Shown here: positions 4,673 through 27,578 of the stretch, in pieces
How positions within the stretch are numbered: the first letter of the stretch is position 1
How the letters are laid out: each line of letters begins with the position of its first letter
Virus record (IMG/VR): IMGVR_UViG_3300042691_013758
Coordinates: 1-35,639 of that record
DNA: 35,639 nt
DNA from: a virus
Direction: 5' to 3' (one strand)
Position numbers and translations under genes: made by a program
The notes under the pieces: generated by a model
Databases searched by the model: none
Told to the model about the DNA's origin: nothing
Seen by the model: only the letters and a program-made list of their open reading frames with translations

Positions 4673-5004
4673 TTGTAGCTCTCCGCATACGATTGAAGGA
4701 TAACCGCCATACGCTTGTTAGACACGCCCTCTACCGTTGAGAGTAGGTCCTTTAAACGAGCGTGAAAGCGCTCTTCGGCGGATACGGGGGCGGTCCAGCG
4801 CCATACTTGGTGTTTGTGCGGTATAGGCCCCACGGGTAGTATAGGGTGGGGCTCAACGAATATACTGGCGTGTTGCTTGCCACGGTCGCGTGCCGCGCCC
4901 TCGCATTGCACCACAAGATCAGTACGTCCGTCTTGCGTGGCAAAATACCATTCGCGATCCGAGACGATGTACGAGTATACGGTATCTGTTTCGACAATTT
5001 TCAT
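4669..5004 (-). CDS. Hypothetical protein between polymerase and nuclease genes (111 aa)
   Basis: I place the start at ATG 5004, which overlaps the polymerase TAA as TAATG; the frame is open further upstream but only inside the polymerase gene. The sequence begins MKIVETDTVYSYIVSDREWYF, a beta-hairpin-like start, then has His/Pro-rich segments and a helical C-terminus. The stop overlaps the next start as ATGA. No family is recognised. Position directly after the DNA polymerase suggests a replication accessory role, without direct sequence support. Confidence 0.6.
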   Translation of the reverse strand: MKIVETDTVYSYIVSDREWYFATQDGRTDLVVQCEGAARDRGKQHASIFVEPHPILPVGPIPHKHQVWRWTAPVSAEERFHARLKDLLSTVEGVSNKRMAVILQSYAESYK

Positions 5005-7187
5005 TACTGGTACCTTTCCATTTGACTTGCTTCTGCGGCTAGGGGTAAATCGCCATACCACGGCTCAGGCTCGCACATTATAGACGCAAGCTGGTCAGGC
5101 GTGCCGTGGCCTATAAGCGGCATGGTTACGTTACTGTCGTGTACTAACATACGGGACGGGTAGCCCGCCCGTTCGGCCTTTAAACCGCCCGTGACGAGTA
5201 CGTCCCTGGCGATCTTCTGTACCATGTTTTCGACTAGCTTTCCGCCGTACGTAGGCTCACGGTAGCTCTTGCCGTTCCATTCCGTACGGAAGCTCAATTG
5301 CTCGCGTATGCGCCCCCAGCGCTCCACGACTTCGACTTTCGGGCGGTAGTAGTGCTGGCACGATCCGCTAGGGTCCTGGCGCACAAGCCAGTACCGCTCT
5401 TCGTCAATGTGCCACGTATAGAATTTAACGCCCGTTGCGCCTAGCTCATACACTTGGCCGGGGTTCATCACGGCGAGTATGGCGCATTGCTCGACCCGTG
5501 ACCATAGCTTCACAATTTCGGGATGGGCGTCGCGGTAGTCTTTAACGGTCTTTTGCGCTTCCTCAAGCGCGATAATCAAATCGGAGTTATCGCAGTATTC
5601 TACAAACTTGGGAGGGCCGATGCCAAAGCCCGCGCCTAGCACCGCCGACTTGGCTATCTGGCGCTTGCGGGCGTACGGGCCTGTTTTAAAGACTTTACCC
5701 CGCGCGTCGAAGTAGTCTTCGTAGCGCGTCTCGGGCCACATATAATCCGACGCGAATTTGACGTACGGGTCTTTCTTCTCTCTAAACGCGTCAAGAAGCC
5801 ATTCGCAGCGCGCTAGCCAAGCGAGTATTCGCGCCTCAATCTGCGAGTAGTCGCAGTCGATAATCGTATGCCCAGGTTCAGGACGTATAAACCCCTTCAT
5901 GGACACGCTCAGCGCCTTTAAAGGCCGCATAAAGCGCCACTCGGCGGCGTCTATCCAATCGGGTTTACCGACGACACTAGGGTCGTCCAGAATGCTAAGC
6001 GGGGGTCCGCCGTTGTGCCCTATCTGACCGCCCCACCACGGGCCGTCTAGATACTCAAACATGCGTTCTAGCACGTACGGGTCACTACGTTTCATGTTGC
6101 CGGTCTGCAAGCGCTTATGCGACCAACGCATAGTGTGCGCGCCGCCGTACAGGTGGCCTCCGCGCACTACGCTGTCTATGGGGTCCGCGCACGCCTGCAT
6201 CGTGGCGAGTTTCTTTACAGACGCTAGTGAGTTATCCAGCCGTATATTGATTGCGTCCTGTAGGTCTTGCGGAAACTCTGCTTTAATTAAACGCTTTAAA
6301 GTCTTTGAGCGCAAGTCCCCCAGGTTATCAATCTCTTCGCGTTGTTGCAGATACTCAAGCACACGGTCACGCTGCGTCGGGCGTAAGTCCGTAATCTGCT
6401 GAAAGCGTCGGTTAGCTTGTTCCGTGAAGTATTCCGAGTACGCTATGGCGCGGTCCACGCTCTGTAGGTCTACAGGAACACCACGGCGATTGATAATTTC
6501 GTCCCATTCCCATGCGGCTTGTTCGAACGGGGGCAGATCGGGCAAGAGCGCGTCGATATCCGCTTCCGCCATACCGTCGATAACGCAATACTCTAGACCG
6601 GCTTGCCAACCTGCGCGGTTTTGATGGGGCTCGTACCATAGGTCCTTAACGATGCCGTCCTTTTTCGGCCCCTTGTACTTACGTGGCTTACAAAAATTAG
6701 TGATGAATTCCTTGCCGCGCGCATCTTTCTGATTAACCACTTCAAGGTCGGACGCTGAGCCTTCAAGACTAGCTCTAATTCCGTAATAACGACTGCGCGC
6801 GGCAGTACATGACCAACGCGTGATAGGGGGCCAACCCCATTGCAGGTGACAAATATAGTAATAGATTGCCTGTTCAAACCGTGCGTTATGTGCAACGAAT
6901 GTGTCGCCGCGTGCGATTGCTGCCAGGATAGCAGGCGGGCAAGGTACTTTAAAGAGGTTGAGCGTCGGGCTGGGGGGCTTCTCATTAGGGTACCTGCTCG
7001 CTGCATATCCCGGTATATCAAAGAAGTCGATAATCTCGAATACAGGCGCTTGGCCGCGCGGGGCGGAACCGATGGTAAGCATTAGAGGGGTTGTTGACCA
7101 GTGACGCGCGTATACATGCTCGCCCAGCTTGGGCAAGTCTATAAGACTACGCGTCTCGAAGTCGATATGTGTACGGAGCGCTTCCAT
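5004..7187 (-). CDS. Family A DNA polymerase with 3'-5' exonuclease domain (727 aa)
   Basis: This is the replicative polymerase of the phage. The N-terminal DnaQ-like proofreading domain has ExoI HIDFETRS (D9, E11); ExoII reads HNARFE, with Glu where Asp is usual, and ExoIII is around YCVIDGMAEADID. The polymerase domain has motif A DCDYSQIEAR (catalytic D446), motif B RQIAKSAVLGAGFG (Arg and Lys conserved, Phe at the usual Tyr position) and motif C LVHDSN (D684). There is no 5'-3' nuclease domain, as in other phage enzymes. An unusual insert with the peptide IGHNGGPPL (389-397), shared with the large terminase, lies upstream of motif A. The upstream gene's stop is 10 bp from the start. Confidence 0.95.
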   Translation of the reverse strand: MEALRTHIDFETRSLIDLPKLGEHVYARHWSTTPLMLTIGSAPRGQAPVFEIIDFFDIPGYAASRYPNEKPPSPTLNLFKVPCPPAILAAIARGDTFVAHNARFEQAIYYYICHLQWGWPPITRWSCTAARSRYYGIRASLEGSASDLEVVNQKDARGKEFITNFCKPRKYKGPKKDGIVKDLWYEPHQNRAGWQAGLEYCVIDGMAEADIDALLPDLPPFEQAAWEWDEIINRRGVPVDLQSVDRAIAYSEYFTEQANRRFQQITDLRPTQRDRVLEYLQQREEIDNLGDLRSKTLKRLIKAEFPQDLQDAINIRLDNSLASVKKLATMQACADPIDSVVRGGHLYGGAHTMRWSHKRLQTGNMKRSDPYVLERMFEYLDGPWWGGQIGHNGGPPLSILDDPSVVGKPDWIDAAEWRFMRPLKALSVSMKGFIRPEPGHTIIDCDYSQIEARILAWLARCEWLLDAFREKKDPYVKFASDYMWPETRYEDYFDARGKVFKTGPYARKRQIAKSAVLGAGFGIGPPKFVEYCDNSDLIIALEEAQKTVKDYRDAHPEIVKLWSRVEQCAILAVMNPGQVYELGATGVKFYTWHIDEERYWLVRQDPSGSCQHYYRPKVEVVERWGRIREQLSFRTEWNGKSYREPTYGGKLVENMVQKIARDVLVTGGLKAERAGYPSRMLVHDSNVTMPLIGHGTPDQLASIMCEPEPWYGDLPLAAEASQMERYQ

Positions 7188-18969: not shown

Positions 18970-20175
18970 TTAAAGCGCCTTTTCGATTTGCTTCACGGTG
19001 TCGGCGTCCAAGCCTTTCCAGATCGCCATTTGCGCCGCTTCTTCCCACGTAAACCCGTCTTCGAGCAACGCGCAACCCTCATACGTCGCGCGGGGCGTGA
19101 CAAGGTGGGGCAATTCGCGTTGGGCGATCACGCGGCGGATACGTTGCACGTAGTCACACCATTCGGCGTTGGACGCCAACGCGCGCTCTAAAGCGTCATC
19201 ATAGCCGAATTCTAGGAACGTGAAGCGGTCAATTGATGCGGCGTCCAATTGCTCACGCCCGACATACTGGCGCGACGAACCCGTCAAGGTAGTGTTACCC
19301 GCCGCAATGCATTTGAAGTCGGGATGGCGCTTCACCACGCCGTCAGGGAAGGCGCACACGCCGTTAGCAAGCGCCATATTCAGCGCGACAATCGCGCCCG
19401 CGCCCGACCCGTCCAATTCGTCAAATAGGAACACCCCGCCATGTTCATACGCTTCGCGGAATGGCGTACGCACAACGCTTCCGGTGGCGTCGCGGAACCC
19501 AAGAAGTAGATATTCGCTCTCAACCTTGGCGACGTAGTAGACGGGAAGATTGAACGCTTGGCCCGCTTGTGCGGCCACTGTCGTTTTACCCGACCCGGCC
19601 GGACCATGGAGGTAGACGTTACGCCCGGGTCGCGCCAGGAGGCGAATAACCTTGGGCGTGAGGCGATGCGTAAGACCCAGCGGGACGGCGGGCGCGTTGG
19701 CGACGCTCACGACAAGCGAGACCGGCGCTAGGTCGCGAATAGCCTTCGCGACGTTGGACCGGATATCCGACCCGATTGCGTCCATGCGCGCGTTAAAGGA
19801 CCGCTCCTGATCTTCAACCGCGCGCTGTAGGGGTTCGATTGCCCCGCTTTGTACCTCGTCGCGAATGATGCGCCGAACCTCGTCTATGGACGGGCCAGAA
19901 GCCCCCATAGGCGGGCGGGCGGGGGAATGTGCCGAACCAACGCGGAGGCGGATACGGTCGGCAATGCGTTGCGCCGCTACGCCGTCCTTTTGAGCGACGT
20001 TAAAGAGACCGCGCAAATCGGCGTCCGTCATGGCGCGAACGTCCGTTTCGGAAATTCCGGTAGCTTGTGCGAGACGCTCTAAAGCGTAGGCGGGGGGCGA
20101 GCGTCCATAATCGCGCGATATCTCGCGCGCTAGGTCCGTAATCGCATGGGGGCTGGTAAGCGTTTGGTAGGCCAC
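18970..20175 (-). CDS. MoxR/CobS-type AAA+ ATPase (401 aa)
   Basis: It begins with GTG 20175 after AGGAGACCTACC. Walker A GPAGSGKT (191-198), Walker B FLFDEL (D252, E253), sensor 1 AAGNT (N294) and DAASIDRF with the predicted arginine finger R317 are all present. The first 160 residues are helical with a coiled-coil-like stretch (about 100-150) and may be an oligomerisation or partner domain. MoxR/CobS-like ATPases remodel or activate protein complexes together with VWA partners. It forms a three-gene module with 18120-18968 and 20265-20894. The ATPase assignment is firm; the target is unknown. Confidence 0.88.
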   Translation of the reverse strand: MAYQTLTSPHAITDLAREISRDYGRSPPAYALERLAQATGISETDVRAMTDADLRGLFNVAQKDGVAAQRIADRIRLRVGSAHSPARPPMGASGPSIDEVRRIIRDEVQSGAIEPLQRAVEDQERSFNARMDAIGSDIRSNVAKAIRDLAPVSLVVSVANAPAVPLGLTHRLTPKVIRLLARPGRNVYLHGPAGSGKTTVAAQAGQAFNLPVYYVAKVESEYLLLGFRDATGSVVRTPFREAYEHGGVFLFDELDGSGAGAIVALNMALANGVCAFPDGVVKRHPDFKCIAAGNTTLTGSSRQYVGREQLDAASIDRFTFLEFGYDDALERALASNAEWCDYVQRIRRVIAQRELPHLVTPRATYEGCALLEDGFTWEEAAQMAIWKGLDADTVKQIEKAL

Positions 20176-23810: not shown

Positions 23811-23958
23811 CGAGGAACACGCTAAGCAGATACGCGCGCTACGCCTAGCAGCGGATAAGGCGTACGCGGACGGCGCATGGAACGGCCTATTCGTAGGCTT
23901 TTTCATCGGCGCGGTACTCGGCATCATCCTGATGATGGCGTTTACTGCGTATGCCTGA
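23794..23958 (+). CDS. Small single-pass membrane protein (54 aa)
   Basis: ATG 23794 follows GAGG by six bases, overlaps the end of the Acb2-like gene by 17 bp, and its TGA overlaps the TerL start by 8 bp. A charged N-terminal helix (MRPDEEHAKQIRALRLAADK) precedes a strongly hydrophobic segment (GLFVGFFIGAVLGIILMMAF) with the glycines typical of a membrane helix. The topology resembles a spanin- or pinholin-like small protein but there is no lipobox. The function is unknown; its place in the terminase cluster is odd for a lysis gene. Confidence 0.65.
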   Translation: MLMRPDEEHAKQIRALRLAADKAYADGAWNGLFVGFFIGAVLGIILMMAFTAYA

Positions 23959-25462
23959 TGACGCCGGTATAGGCCATAACGGAGGCCCGCCGCTTTGGGA
24001 GCCCCAGCCGGGGCCTCAAGCCCTCGCCGTGGGGGCTATGTTCGTTGATGAGCTTATGTTCGGCGGCGCACGGGGCGGCGGTAAATCCGACTTTCTGCTA
24101 GGCGACTTCCTACAGGATATTCAACTAGGGGAGAAGTGGCGGGGTATTATATTCCGCAAGTCGTACCCCGAGCTAGAAGAGCTTATCACCCGTGCAAAGG
24201 AAATATACGCACCTTACGGCGCGATCTACAAAGTAGCCGAAAAGACGTTCGTATTCCCTGGCGGTGCGTCTTTAAAGATGCGCCACGTCGAGACCGAAAA
24301 GGACTGCGACAAATATCAGGGCCACCAGTACACATGGATTGGCTGGGACGAGCTTACGAACTGGCCGGACCTCAAGTCGTACAAGAAACTTAAAGCGTGC
24401 TTGCGTTCGGCGCACGATGTGCCCTTTAAAAGAATTCGATGCTCGGCCAACCCCGGCGGCGTCGGCCACCATGCGGTTAAAGCGTACTTTGTAGACCCGG
24501 CTCCGCAGGGCATGGAGCTACTGTCTAGCGTTACTACGTCGCAGAACCCTGATGGCACGACGTACTCTGAGACCACGACGCGGATGTTTATCCCGTCGAA
24601 GGTCCATGACAACAAAATTCTTATGCGTAACGACCCCGGCTATATCGCCCGTCTGCACGAGATTGGGTCGCCAGAACTCGTTAAAGCGTGGCTGAACGGC
24701 GACTGGAGCGTTATTACGGGTGCGTACTTCCCCGAATTCAGCATCGACAAGCACGTAATTAAGCCTTTTAAAATCCCTGACCATTGGTTGCGGTTTCGCT
24801 CGATGGACTGGGGTTCAGCTACGCCCTTTGCCGTGCTATGGTACGCTGTCGTTTCCGAAGATTACGAGATGGAAAACGGCGTGTGGTTGCCGCAAGGCGC
24901 GCTAGTGACGTACCGCGAGCTTTACGGCTGGAATGGCAAGCCGAACGAAGGCGTACGTTGGCCCGCTACTCGCGTGGCTCAAGAGATTTTAAAGCGCGAA
25001 GCCGGGGATAAGGTCACTTACGGCGTAATCGACCCGTCTGCGTATTCAAACCAGTCGGGGCCGTCACATGCGGAACGTATGGCCGTAGAAGGCGTGGTGT
25101 TCCGCAAAGCCGATAACAACCGTATTGGCGGTTGGGATATGGTGCGGGACCGGCTGTGCGGCGTTGAAGGCGATCCTGCCGTGAACAACGGCGTGGGTAG
25201 GCCGATGTGGTACGTATTTGCTACGTGTTCTCATATTATCCGTACGCTACCTGCTTTGCAACACGACATAACGGACCCGGAAGACTGCGATACGGACGGC
25301 GAAGACCACGCCCCCGACAGCCTCCGCTATGGGTTTATGTCCCGCCCCTGGAGGCGACCGAAGCCGAAAAAACCGACCGGGAGCATTGTAAAGCTCTTGC
25401 AAGATGCTACCCTAGACGAACTGTGGACCGCTAAAGACGAATTCGAGGAATGGCATGGCTAA
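23951..25462 (+). CDS. terL: Terminase large subunit (503 aa)
   Basis: This is the DNA-packaging motor and headful nuclease. Walker A GGARGGGKS (38-46), Walker B YTWIGWDE (D133, E134), the coupling motif region SANPGG, and nuclease acidic motifs at RSMDWGS, GVIDPSAY and HAPDSLRYG are present, so both ATPase and nuclease domains look intact. The N-terminus contains the peptide IGHNGGPPL (7-15) just before the ATPase core, shared with this phage's DNA polymerase. The start overlaps the upstream membrane-protein gene by 8 bp and the stop overlaps the portal start by 8 bp, so translation is coupled. Confidence 0.95.
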   Translation: MPDDAGIGHNGGPPLWEPQPGPQALAVGAMFVDELMFGGARGGGKSDFLLGDFLQDIQLGEKWRGIIFRKSYPELEELITRAKEIYAPYGAIYKVAEKTFVFPGGASLKMRHVETEKDCDKYQGHQYTWIGWDELTNWPDLKSYKKLKACLRSAHDVPFKRIRCSANPGGVGHHAVKAYFVDPAPQGMELLSSVTTSQNPDGTTYSETTTRMFIPSKVHDNKILMRNDPGYIARLHEIGSPELVKAWLNGDWSVITGAYFPEFSIDKHVIKPFKIPDHWLRFRSMDWGSATPFAVLWYAVVSEDYEMENGVWLPQGALVTYRELYGWNGKPNEGVRWPATRVAQEILKREAGDKVTYGVIDPSAYSNQSGPSHAERMAVEGVVFRKADNNRIGGWDMVRDRLCGVEGDPAVNNGVGRPMWYVFATCSHIIRTLPALQHDITDPEDCDTDGEDHAPDSLRYGFMSRPWRRPKPKKPTGSIVKLLQDATLDELWTAKDEFEEWHG

Positions 25463-27578
25463 GGCGCGCGGCAACCCCGATAATCAGGTTTCATACTGGA
25501 CTACGGAGATAGAGCGCGCAAAGAAGCGCTATAGGCCGTTCCATGATGCGGGCGAGACCGTGATCGACGCGTATCGGTTGCAGAAGGCTGACGGCAACGA
25601 CTTGGCCTATCGTGACAAATATAATATCCTGTATTCGTCTACGGAAACTATGCGCCCGCAGCTATACTCGAATACACCTAAAGTCCGCGTAGTGATGCGC
25701 AGTAAGGATACTGCGACGGACTCGCAGCGTCTCGGAGCGTTGCTGATTGAGGGGTGCGTCAAATATATTCAAGACGAAGAACAATTTGACGCCATCATGG
25801 ATCAAACGGTTGACGATTATTTGTTGCCGGGTATGGGTCAAGCGTGGGTACGCTACGAACCTACATTCGGCGAAGATAATAAACTGCTTGACGAAATGGT
25901 TAAGCTCGACTACGTGTATTGGGCGGATTTTCTTACTGGCGTGGGGCGTACTTGGGAAGACGTACCGTGGGTCGCTAAGCGCCTGTGGCTGACGAAGGAG
26001 CGCGCTAAGGCCCGTTTCGGCCCCGAAATTGCAAGTAACCTTACATATGTGATGCGCGAGTCGTCTAATCGCGACCAAGATACACCGTCGGATACGGCGG
26101 AAGTGTGGGAGATTTGGGATAAGGCTAAACTCCGAGTCGTATGGTATTCCGAGGGCTTGGATAAGCTGATCGACACCAAGACGGACCCGCTACGTCTCAA
26201 GAAGTTTTTTCCGTGCCCGAAGCCGATCCGCGCAATTCACAATACTCGGTCATTTGTACCGCGTTCGTTGTACTCGCAGTACCGATCACAAGCCGAGACT
26301 TTAAACGTCCTGACGCGCCGTATTAGGCTGCTCGGCGAAGCCCTGCGCGTGGTCGGCTTCTATGACGGCCAGCATACCGCGCTTGCAGACGCTTTAAACC
26401 CAAATGCCGGCAACAAGATGATTGCCGTAGATAGCTGGGCCGCATTTGCGCAAAGCGGCGGCATGGCCGGGAACGTCGTTTGGCTTCCTATCGACCAGAT
26501 CGTGAAGGTGCTTAACGAGCTATTGCAGGCCCGTGAAGTATGCAAACAAGAAATTTACGAGATTACGGGTTTTTCGGACATCGTTCGCGGGGTCTCTAAA
26601 GCGTCAGAAACGCTCGGGGCACAAAACATCAAAGCGAATTTTGCCAGCGCGCGTATTCGTAAAATGCAGCGTGAAATTCAGCGCTTTGCAAAAGACCTAC
26701 TGGCGCTAGTCGGCGAAGTGGTCTCGGAGCATTGCTCGCCGGAAACCATCGCTCTGTTCTCGGGGCTTTCGATCCCGGACCCGGAACAGGTAAGGGTTAA
26801 TCCGCAACTACAGCAGCGGATGCAGCTCTTTAAAGAAGCAACAGATTTGATCCGTAACGAGATGCGACGTGTATCTAGCATCGACATTGAGACGGATAGT
26901 ACGCTACTTGCCGATGACGAACAGGAACGCGCAGATCGGTCGCAGTTTCTTTCGGCGGCTGGGGCGTTCCTGCAACAAGCCGTACCTGCCATGGAAGCGA
27001 CGCCAGAACTCGGCCCGCTCCTTGGCGCGTTGCTTATGTTCACTGTCCGCACGTTCCCGTCTTCGAGGCCCATCGAAGAGGAATTCGAGCGCGTACAGCA
27101 GGCCATGGCTAACCGGCAGCCGCAGCAGGACAAGGACGGTAAACAGGCTAAAGCAGCCGTGGATCAAGCTAAGCTCGAACAAACGGCTAAGATCGAAACG
27201 GATAAACTGCAAGTCCAGAGAGAACAGGCAGAAGCCGACCGAGCGCTAGAAGCGCAAAAAGAGGCGAACCGGCATAGCGAACGTATGCTGGAACTTGGGT
27301 ATAAGGAACGTGAGCTTGAGCTTCGCGAGCGCGAACTGGCCTTTAAAGAGCGAGAGCTTGAAGAGCAAGTTAAGCTGGATAAGTTTAAAGCGCTCCATGA
27401 AGCGGGTATGCGTGAGGAAGAACAGGAACGCGAGGCCGAAGAGCGGGAGGCCGACCGCACCCACGAAGCCGAAGAGCGGGAGGCCGACCGCACCCAGGAG
27501 TACGACAGAATGGACCGGGACGCCGAAGAGCGGGAGGCCGACCGGGAGACTGAGCGCGAGCCCACTAAAGAGGGTTGA
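25455..27578 (+). CDS. Portal protein, P22/Bcep22-like (707 aa)
   Basis: It follows TerL with an 8-bp overlap, the usual order. The N-terminal two-thirds match large podovirus portals: YWTTEIERAKKRYRPFHDAG near the start, then YNILYSSTETMRPQLYSNTP with the wing and stem regions, about 700 residues as in P22. The C-terminal 160 residues are a long charged coiled coil, ending in repeats of AEEREADR encoded by near-identical 23-bp DNA units (27435, 27468, 27522). That C-terminal helix may form the barrel of the portal inside the capsid. It makes the dodecameric vertex through which DNA enters. Confidence 0.9.
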   Translation: MAKARGNPDNQVSYWTTEIERAKKRYRPFHDAGETVIDAYRLQKADGNDLAYRDKYNILYSSTETMRPQLYSNTPKVRVVMRSKDTATDSQRLGALLIEGCVKYIQDEEQFDAIMDQTVDDYLLPGMGQAWVRYEPTFGEDNKLLDEMVKLDYVYWADFLTGVGRTWEDVPWVAKRLWLTKERAKARFGPEIASNLTYVMRESSNRDQDTPSDTAEVWEIWDKAKLRVVWYSEGLDKLIDTKTDPLRLKKFFPCPKPIRAIHNTRSFVPRSLYSQYRSQAETLNVLTRRIRLLGEALRVVGFYDGQHTALADALNPNAGNKMIAVDSWAAFAQSGGMAGNVVWLPIDQIVKVLNELLQAREVCKQEIYEITGFSDIVRGVSKASETLGAQNIKANFASARIRKMQREIQRFAKDLLALVGEVVSEHCSPETIALFSGLSIPDPEQVRVNPQLQQRMQLFKEATDLIRNEMRRVSSIDIETDSTLLADDEQERADRSQFLSAAGAFLQQAVPAMEATPELGPLLGALLMFTVRTFPSSRPIEEEFERVQQAMANRQPQQDKDGKQAKAAVDQAKLEQTAKIETDKLQVQREQAEADRALEAQKEANRHSERMLELGYKERELELRERELAFKERELEEQVKLDKFKALHEAGMREEEQEREAEEREADRTHEAEEREADRTQEYDRMDRDAEEREADRETEREPTKEG
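27435..27544 (+). repeat. In-frame 23-bp repeats at the portal C-terminus
   Basis: GCCGAAGAGCGGGAGGCC followed by GACCG starts at 27435, 27468 and 27522; the first two copies are spaced by exactly 33 bp (11 codons). They encode AEEREADR. This is a site where slippage or recombination could change the length of the portal coiled coil. Confidence 0.75.

Follow-up and report, generated by a model that had tools for sequence, protein, structure and literature searches.

Results

The stretch of viral DNA analyzed here (the window, 35,639 nucleotides) carries the nonapeptide IGHNGGPPL in two of its predicted proteins. The first is a family A DNA polymerase of 727 amino acids encoded on the minus strand (5004..7187; Pfam DNA_pol_A, E = 1.2e-11; phrog_17, E = 5.4e-69), in which the peptide occupies residues 389-397 (5997..6023, minus strand). 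The second is a terminase large subunit (TerL) of 503 amino acids encoded on the plus strand (23951..25462; Pfam Terminase_6N, E = 3.7e-06; phrog_979, E = 7e-36), whose N-terminal tail contains the peptide at residues 7-15 (23969..23995, plus strand). The TerL peptide bearing the tag is MPDDAGIGHNGGPPLWEPQ, where the H and N of the motif are residues 9 and 10 in TerL numbering. The positions and residue numbers given in the original prediction were right, with the clarification that the polymerase copy is encoded on the minus strand; the plus-strand reading of 5997-6023 is KRGSAVVPY.

The coding strings of the two copies, ATAGGGCACAACGGCGGACCCCCGCTT and ATAGGCCATAACGGAGGCCCGCCGCTT, show exactly five differences, all at third codon positions and nowhere else, as had been claimed. 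The window encodes 34 ORF proteins (9,760 amino acids), and IGHNGGPPL is the sole peptide of at least seven residues common to two of them. Of 300 shuffles of the residues of these proteins, 10% produced any shared 7-mer; a shared 9-mer was far rarer. A comparison of the first 20 kb of the window with annotated phages found no close relative. The portal gene of the window (25455-27578) belongs to phrog_12082, a family in which the motif is present in another sequence (L064); the window portal itself has no motif, and the tags of the window sit on TerL and the polymerase. An ORF at 18970-20175 on the minus strand matches phrog_249, which is labeled porphyrin biosynthesis (auxiliary metabolic gene category).

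The polymerase motif lies within a lineage-specific insertion, which begins downstream of residues 361-378 (QTGNMKRSDPYVLERMFE) and stops short of residues 446-451 (DYSQIE). It is flanked by QTGNMKRSD and this palm motif. One relative with 67% identity (L266) is missing about 16 residues at the motif insertion, and another with 63% identity (L265) has MGHNGGP at the same place. Homolog comparison showed that the motif is absent from the polymerases of Rhodoferax, Brevundimonas and Manatee Spring phages. A further polymerase (L087) has it at the N terminus (MNAPIGHNGGPPL), compared with residue 389 in the window polymerase. An AlphaFold model of the polymerase computed from five sequences had a mean pLDDT of 50, too poor for judging motif exposure.

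In TerL, the motif precedes WEPQPGPQ and the Walker A region (GGARGGGKS, residues 38-46). TerL relatives, which were chosen by overall similarity without the motif as a filter, have IGHNGGPPL, IGHNGGPLW, IGHNQPPNL, IGHNGPPLW, FGHNGGPVW, IGDNSAPDL or nothing at this place, and a relative located by its motif (L385) has IGHNNPPDL. The fast-changing TerL tail thus keeps one short island, within which the long and the short form can replace each other.

The original prediction had placed the peptide in unrelated phage and alphaproteobacterial proteins as well. This was borne out by scans of a viral collection and of bacterial genomes for IGHNxGPP, which found unrelated carriers in both. In the viral collection, IGHNxGPP is present in at least 119 stretches, IGHNNPP in at least 120 and IGDNNPP in 103, compared with 16 places in the whole collection for a scrambled control of equal degeneracy (HGINxPGP). 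Among the matches listed, 99 of 121 IGHNxGPP sites lay within the longest open frame, compared with 5 of 16 for the scrambled control. Masked-motif BLAST clustering grouped 267 carriers into 62 clusters, and the carriers span at least 15 PHROG families, a recurrence in non-homologous proteins of the kind that defines linear motifs. They comprise TerL proteins (HK97-type phrog_9 as well as phrog_979, phrog_2, phrog_3717 and phrog_10250), portals of five families (phrog_12, phrog_1216, phrog_21, phrog_12082 and phrog_156), DNA polymerase (phrog_17), exonucleases (phrog_10477 and phrog_1218), an HNH endonuclease (phrog_1872), a helicase (phrog_16), a late sigma factor (phrog_12791), a NifU-like protein (phrog_8429) and a virion structural protein (phrog_25516). 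A minority of the matches is due to chance, namely those in very short frames and the tail-fibre string GIGDNNPP in L458, L461 and L472.

Several individual carriers deserve mention. In L309, L282, L292 and other marine viral contigs, NifU/IscU-like phage proteins have IGHNNPP as their C-terminal end. The late sigma factor-like protein at L322:6191-7156 ends with IGHNNPPPEFQ, and its homolog in Escherichia phage PBECO4 is without this tail. In Sulfitobacter phage NYA-2014a (L518:1974-2945), the phrog_10477 exonuclease contains an eroded motif, VGGNNPPDPID, and the next gene is annotated as a DUF2312 protein.

A single motif site was found in 45 of 50 tagged viral records and two sites in the remaining five, and the short form occurred elsewhere in none of the 50 long-form records. 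It follows that in most tagged phages the tag does not link two phage machineries, and the window with its two tags is an exception. The five two-copy records fit an independent rare gain, and we do not claim one tag per phage as a rule. The proposal that the peptide brings replication and packaging together is thus not supported by the copy numbers, nor by the range of carriers, among which are also portals, a late sigma factor, NifU-like and toxin-like proteins, endonucleases and an endolysin.

The motif shows a clear association with one bacterial class. In the bacterial genome scan, 71 of the 119 classified loci belong to Alphaproteobacteria. Residue 9 was outside the search pattern, and it is L, I or M at 70 of 72 alphaproteobacterial sites compared with 5 of 48 elsewhere (p = 2e-24), so that the matches are not spread at random over non-phage proteins. 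Likewise, residue 5 (x) is G at 56 of 72 alphaproteobacterial sites and at 2 of 48 elsewhere, and the median open frame at the sites is 166 codons in Alphaproteobacteria versus 52 elsewhere. In other classes, the matches of the genome scan seem to be due to chance. In an even draw of genomes that included the seeds, Alphaproteobacteria had IGHNxGPP in 17 of 385 and the Cupriavidus class in 2 of 369, and a reversed-pattern control matched one genome in each of the two sets. The short forms, found in 2 of 190 alphaproteobacterial genomes and in 0 of 185 genomes of the comparison set, are rarer in genomes than the long form and only weakly tied to Alphaproteobacteria.

Within carrier families the motif is found at differing places. 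One subset of HK97-type TerL proteins has it at the ATPase/nuclease junction, another about 120-150 residues downstream, and TerL carriers overall have it in N-terminal, internal or C-terminal position. The phrog_12 portals contain it either as a C-terminal tail or at the N terminus (residues 22-28), and in various carriers it lies 2-10 residues after the start codon or 2-20 before the stop codon. Close homologs from phages of other hosts lack the motif: the TerL proteins of a Moraxella phage (48% identity) and a Synechococcus phage (71% identity) show a clean alignment gap in its place, and the C-terminal tag is absent from Klebsiella, Pseudomonas, Agrobacterium and Paracoccus phage portals. 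No motif-like site was found in Agrobacterium phage Rivra and Paracoccus phage Shpa, and the tag is therefore not essential for infecting these hosts. Such gain and loss among homologs is again a hallmark of linear motifs, and with close homologs lacking the motif, a normal structural turn of the carrier folds has so far found no support.

That the peptide rather than the DNA is conserved, as suggested from the two window copies, held over a much larger set. The 113 sites comprised 90 distinct 24-mers and had unrelated flanks, and third codon positions were free and independent (mean matches 3.457 of 7, compared with 3.457 expected). The free codons and the differing places together argue against a DNA signal and against a recent mobile element. 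Judged from sequence, this pattern is what the repeated gain of a functional peptide would look like.

The surroundings of the motif were disorder-like, with a disorder-promoting fraction of 0.645 in its flanks versus 0.586, above all 1000 random placements. Of 45 clusters, 19.8 had the motif close to a terminus, versus 14.9. A profile search of the PDB returned one chance-level match, and no PDB chain holds the motif.

Besides prophage TerL proteins and portals, the bacterial carriers are a small protein, nuclease-toxin-like proteins, an Rhs protein, a GH19-type endolysin and a dGTP diphosphohydrolase-like protein. The small protein is chromosomal, about 67-130 amino acids long and characterized by W..AHkkAWKtPPrEIalrRlaRAeeLGmTYkEYTLEIlERG; loci of this family include L125:4238-4468, L159:3893-4096 and L229:834-1040 along with 24 more. 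Its orthologs keep GHNGGPPL (GHNGGPAL in one) after variable preceding residues. The predicted structure consists of three helices following an uncertain motif-bearing N-terminal tail (pLDDT 51-65). A fold search gave no match at E <= 0.001; the best matches, which are insignificant, were the Arc repressor (E = 4.4) and an antitoxin (E = 6.9), only a hint that the modeled protein may be partly ribbon-helix-helix-like. Neither the small protein nor the nuclease-toxin-like protein had a match in Pfam or NCBIfam. The latter has a proline-rich linker followed by a nuclease-like part, dVHHlVE...NLVRI (in fuller form dVHHlVE...NLVRI...HweInaW). It was found in bacterial (L144, L158, L223) and viral sequences (L014, L032, L043, L046), with the motif in the proline-rich linker; L158 and L223 have an extra N-terminal PRVPAGxxxGGxWTDG segment, and L032 contains two motif genes near each other. 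In both toxin-like and Rhs proteins the motif lies between an N-terminal part and a C-terminal effector part.

Discussion

Our results suggest that IGHNxGPP[L/I/M], IGHNNPP and IGDNNPP are forms of a short linear docking motif of phages of Alphaproteobacteria and some bacterial proteins, a reading to which we assign a probability of roughly 0.6. The motif would come and go in evolution on carriers that are interchangeable, as a short, exposed insert or a tail at a terminus, and would bind one conserved host protein of Alphaproteobacteria. The small bacterial protein may present the same peptide to the same partner as a disordered N-terminal tail, and phages may mimic this peptide, thereby recruiting the partner to a phage protein or occupying it. 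More tentatively, and with somewhat less than even odds, we propose a host mimicry that is clade-wide, in which phages would have repeatedly and independently grafted the peptide of the small protein and so recruit or neutralize one conserved alphaproteobacterial receptor.

The docking tag put forward in the original prediction thus remains plausible and is the best fit to a codon-free island that is inserted or terminal, missing from homologs and set in disorder-like flanks. The details suggested along with it fared less well: besides the link between replication and packaging, a clamp-like or membrane factor as partner is unsupported, as the motif is without the clamp-binding consensus. Some considerations speak against docking in general. 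The carriers have no evident common pathway, which makes a single recruited function hard to name, and phages such as Rivra and Shpa infect their hosts without the tag. In addition, I, G, H, N, P and P are nearly fixed, which is unusually rigid for a docking motif, although the search pattern accounts for part of this by ascertainment.

Known peptides of similar behavior are the bacterial beta-clamp-binding motif and the C-terminal tail of SSB. Like the present motif, these are only a few residues long, are gained and lost in unrelated proteins and are conserved as peptide, not as DNA; they sit in tails or insertions that are exposed, as is probably also true here. However, their sequence is different, and the carriers described here extend beyond DNA metabolism to portals, NifU-like proteins, toxin-like proteins and endolysin. 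The beta-clamp-binding motif was considered as a candidate and rejected; IGHNxGPP[LIM] and IG[HD]NNPP have no consensus of the Q-x-x-[L/M]-x-[F/L] type. Eukaryotic viruses mimic host linear motifs, the likeness being that the same peptide occurs on the small host protein and on unrelated viral proteins. The open-access literature searched contained no account of such mimicry in phages of Alphaproteobacteria. The same literature yielded no report of IGHNGGP, IGHNNPP, IGDNNPP or such a tag, and the string GHNGG matched only in unrelated papers. Within it, the motif is of a known kind, the short linear motif, with a new sequence, taxonomic reach and variety of carriers.

Five further explanations were weighed, and all are weaker than a docking peptide. 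The motif could be a substrate site for an enzyme specific to Alphaproteobacteria, either a protease that processes the carrier or an enzyme that modifies one of its residues. Its restriction to one clade, the near invariance of H and N and the position in presumably exposed linkers or at termini would agree with this, and cleavage between the N-terminal and the C-terminal effector parts of toxin-like and Rhs proteins would be sensible. However, a cut inside the palm region of the polymerase or midway through TerL would destroy the enzyme, and the removal of 5-15 residues from a terminus of portals, NifU-like proteins or TerL has no evident use. These objections concern cleavage and leave modification the likelier form of a substrate site; overall, we consider a substrate site rather unlikely.

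The peptide could also act in trans by occupying or inhibiting a host factor, in which case any expressed phage protein might carry it. This is consistent with the single copy in most tagged records, the carrier that varies between phages and the failure of long and short forms to co-occur. But the window itself has two copies, and the two-copy records can be explained by independent gain. Action in trans would itself be one form of docking, from which sequence data do not separate it; taken as an explanation of its own, we regard it as unlikely.

A translational signal, that is, a ribosome-skipping peptide of the 2A (StopGo) type or an arrest peptide, is very improbable. The 2A core is D-(V/I)-E-x-N-P-G-P, which I-G-H-N-x-G-P-P resembles in its (V/I)-x-x-N-x-G-P spacing, and GPP is slow to translate. 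However, the motif has neither an acidic residue at the 2A places nor the upstream helix, and IGHNNPP, IGDNNPP and IGHNQPP are without the G-P bond. It also occurs at extreme N and C termini, where skipping or arrest would be useless; 2A peptides need about 18 or more upstream residues in the exit tunnel, and many carriers have the motif at residues 2-10.

Equally improbable is a scar of mobile DNA inserted in frame. The Rickettsia palindromic elements, which likewise add a peptide of foreign origin to numerous unrelated genes of Alphaproteobacteria, within the reading frame, are the obvious parallel, and the many unrelated genes and the differing places in homologs would fit. In contrast to these elements, the motif has no palindrome and no conserved DNA beyond the peptide, as seen from the diversity of its 24-mers and its independent codons, and the recurrence is limited to 7-9 residues. 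Finally, chance or an ordinary structural turn, to which G, N and P lend themselves and which does account for some matches, is rejected for the set as a whole by the scrambled control, the residue 9 test and the close homologs without the motif, and its likelihood is negligible.

If the docking reading is true, a single peptide would mark a host target common to podovirus-like, HK97-like and T4-like phages across an entire class of bacteria, and nine residues would suffice as bait in the search for it. The motif would also provide a way into the function of an uncharacterized small bacterial protein, and of those portals, terminases and polymerases that have an otherwise unexplained insertion.
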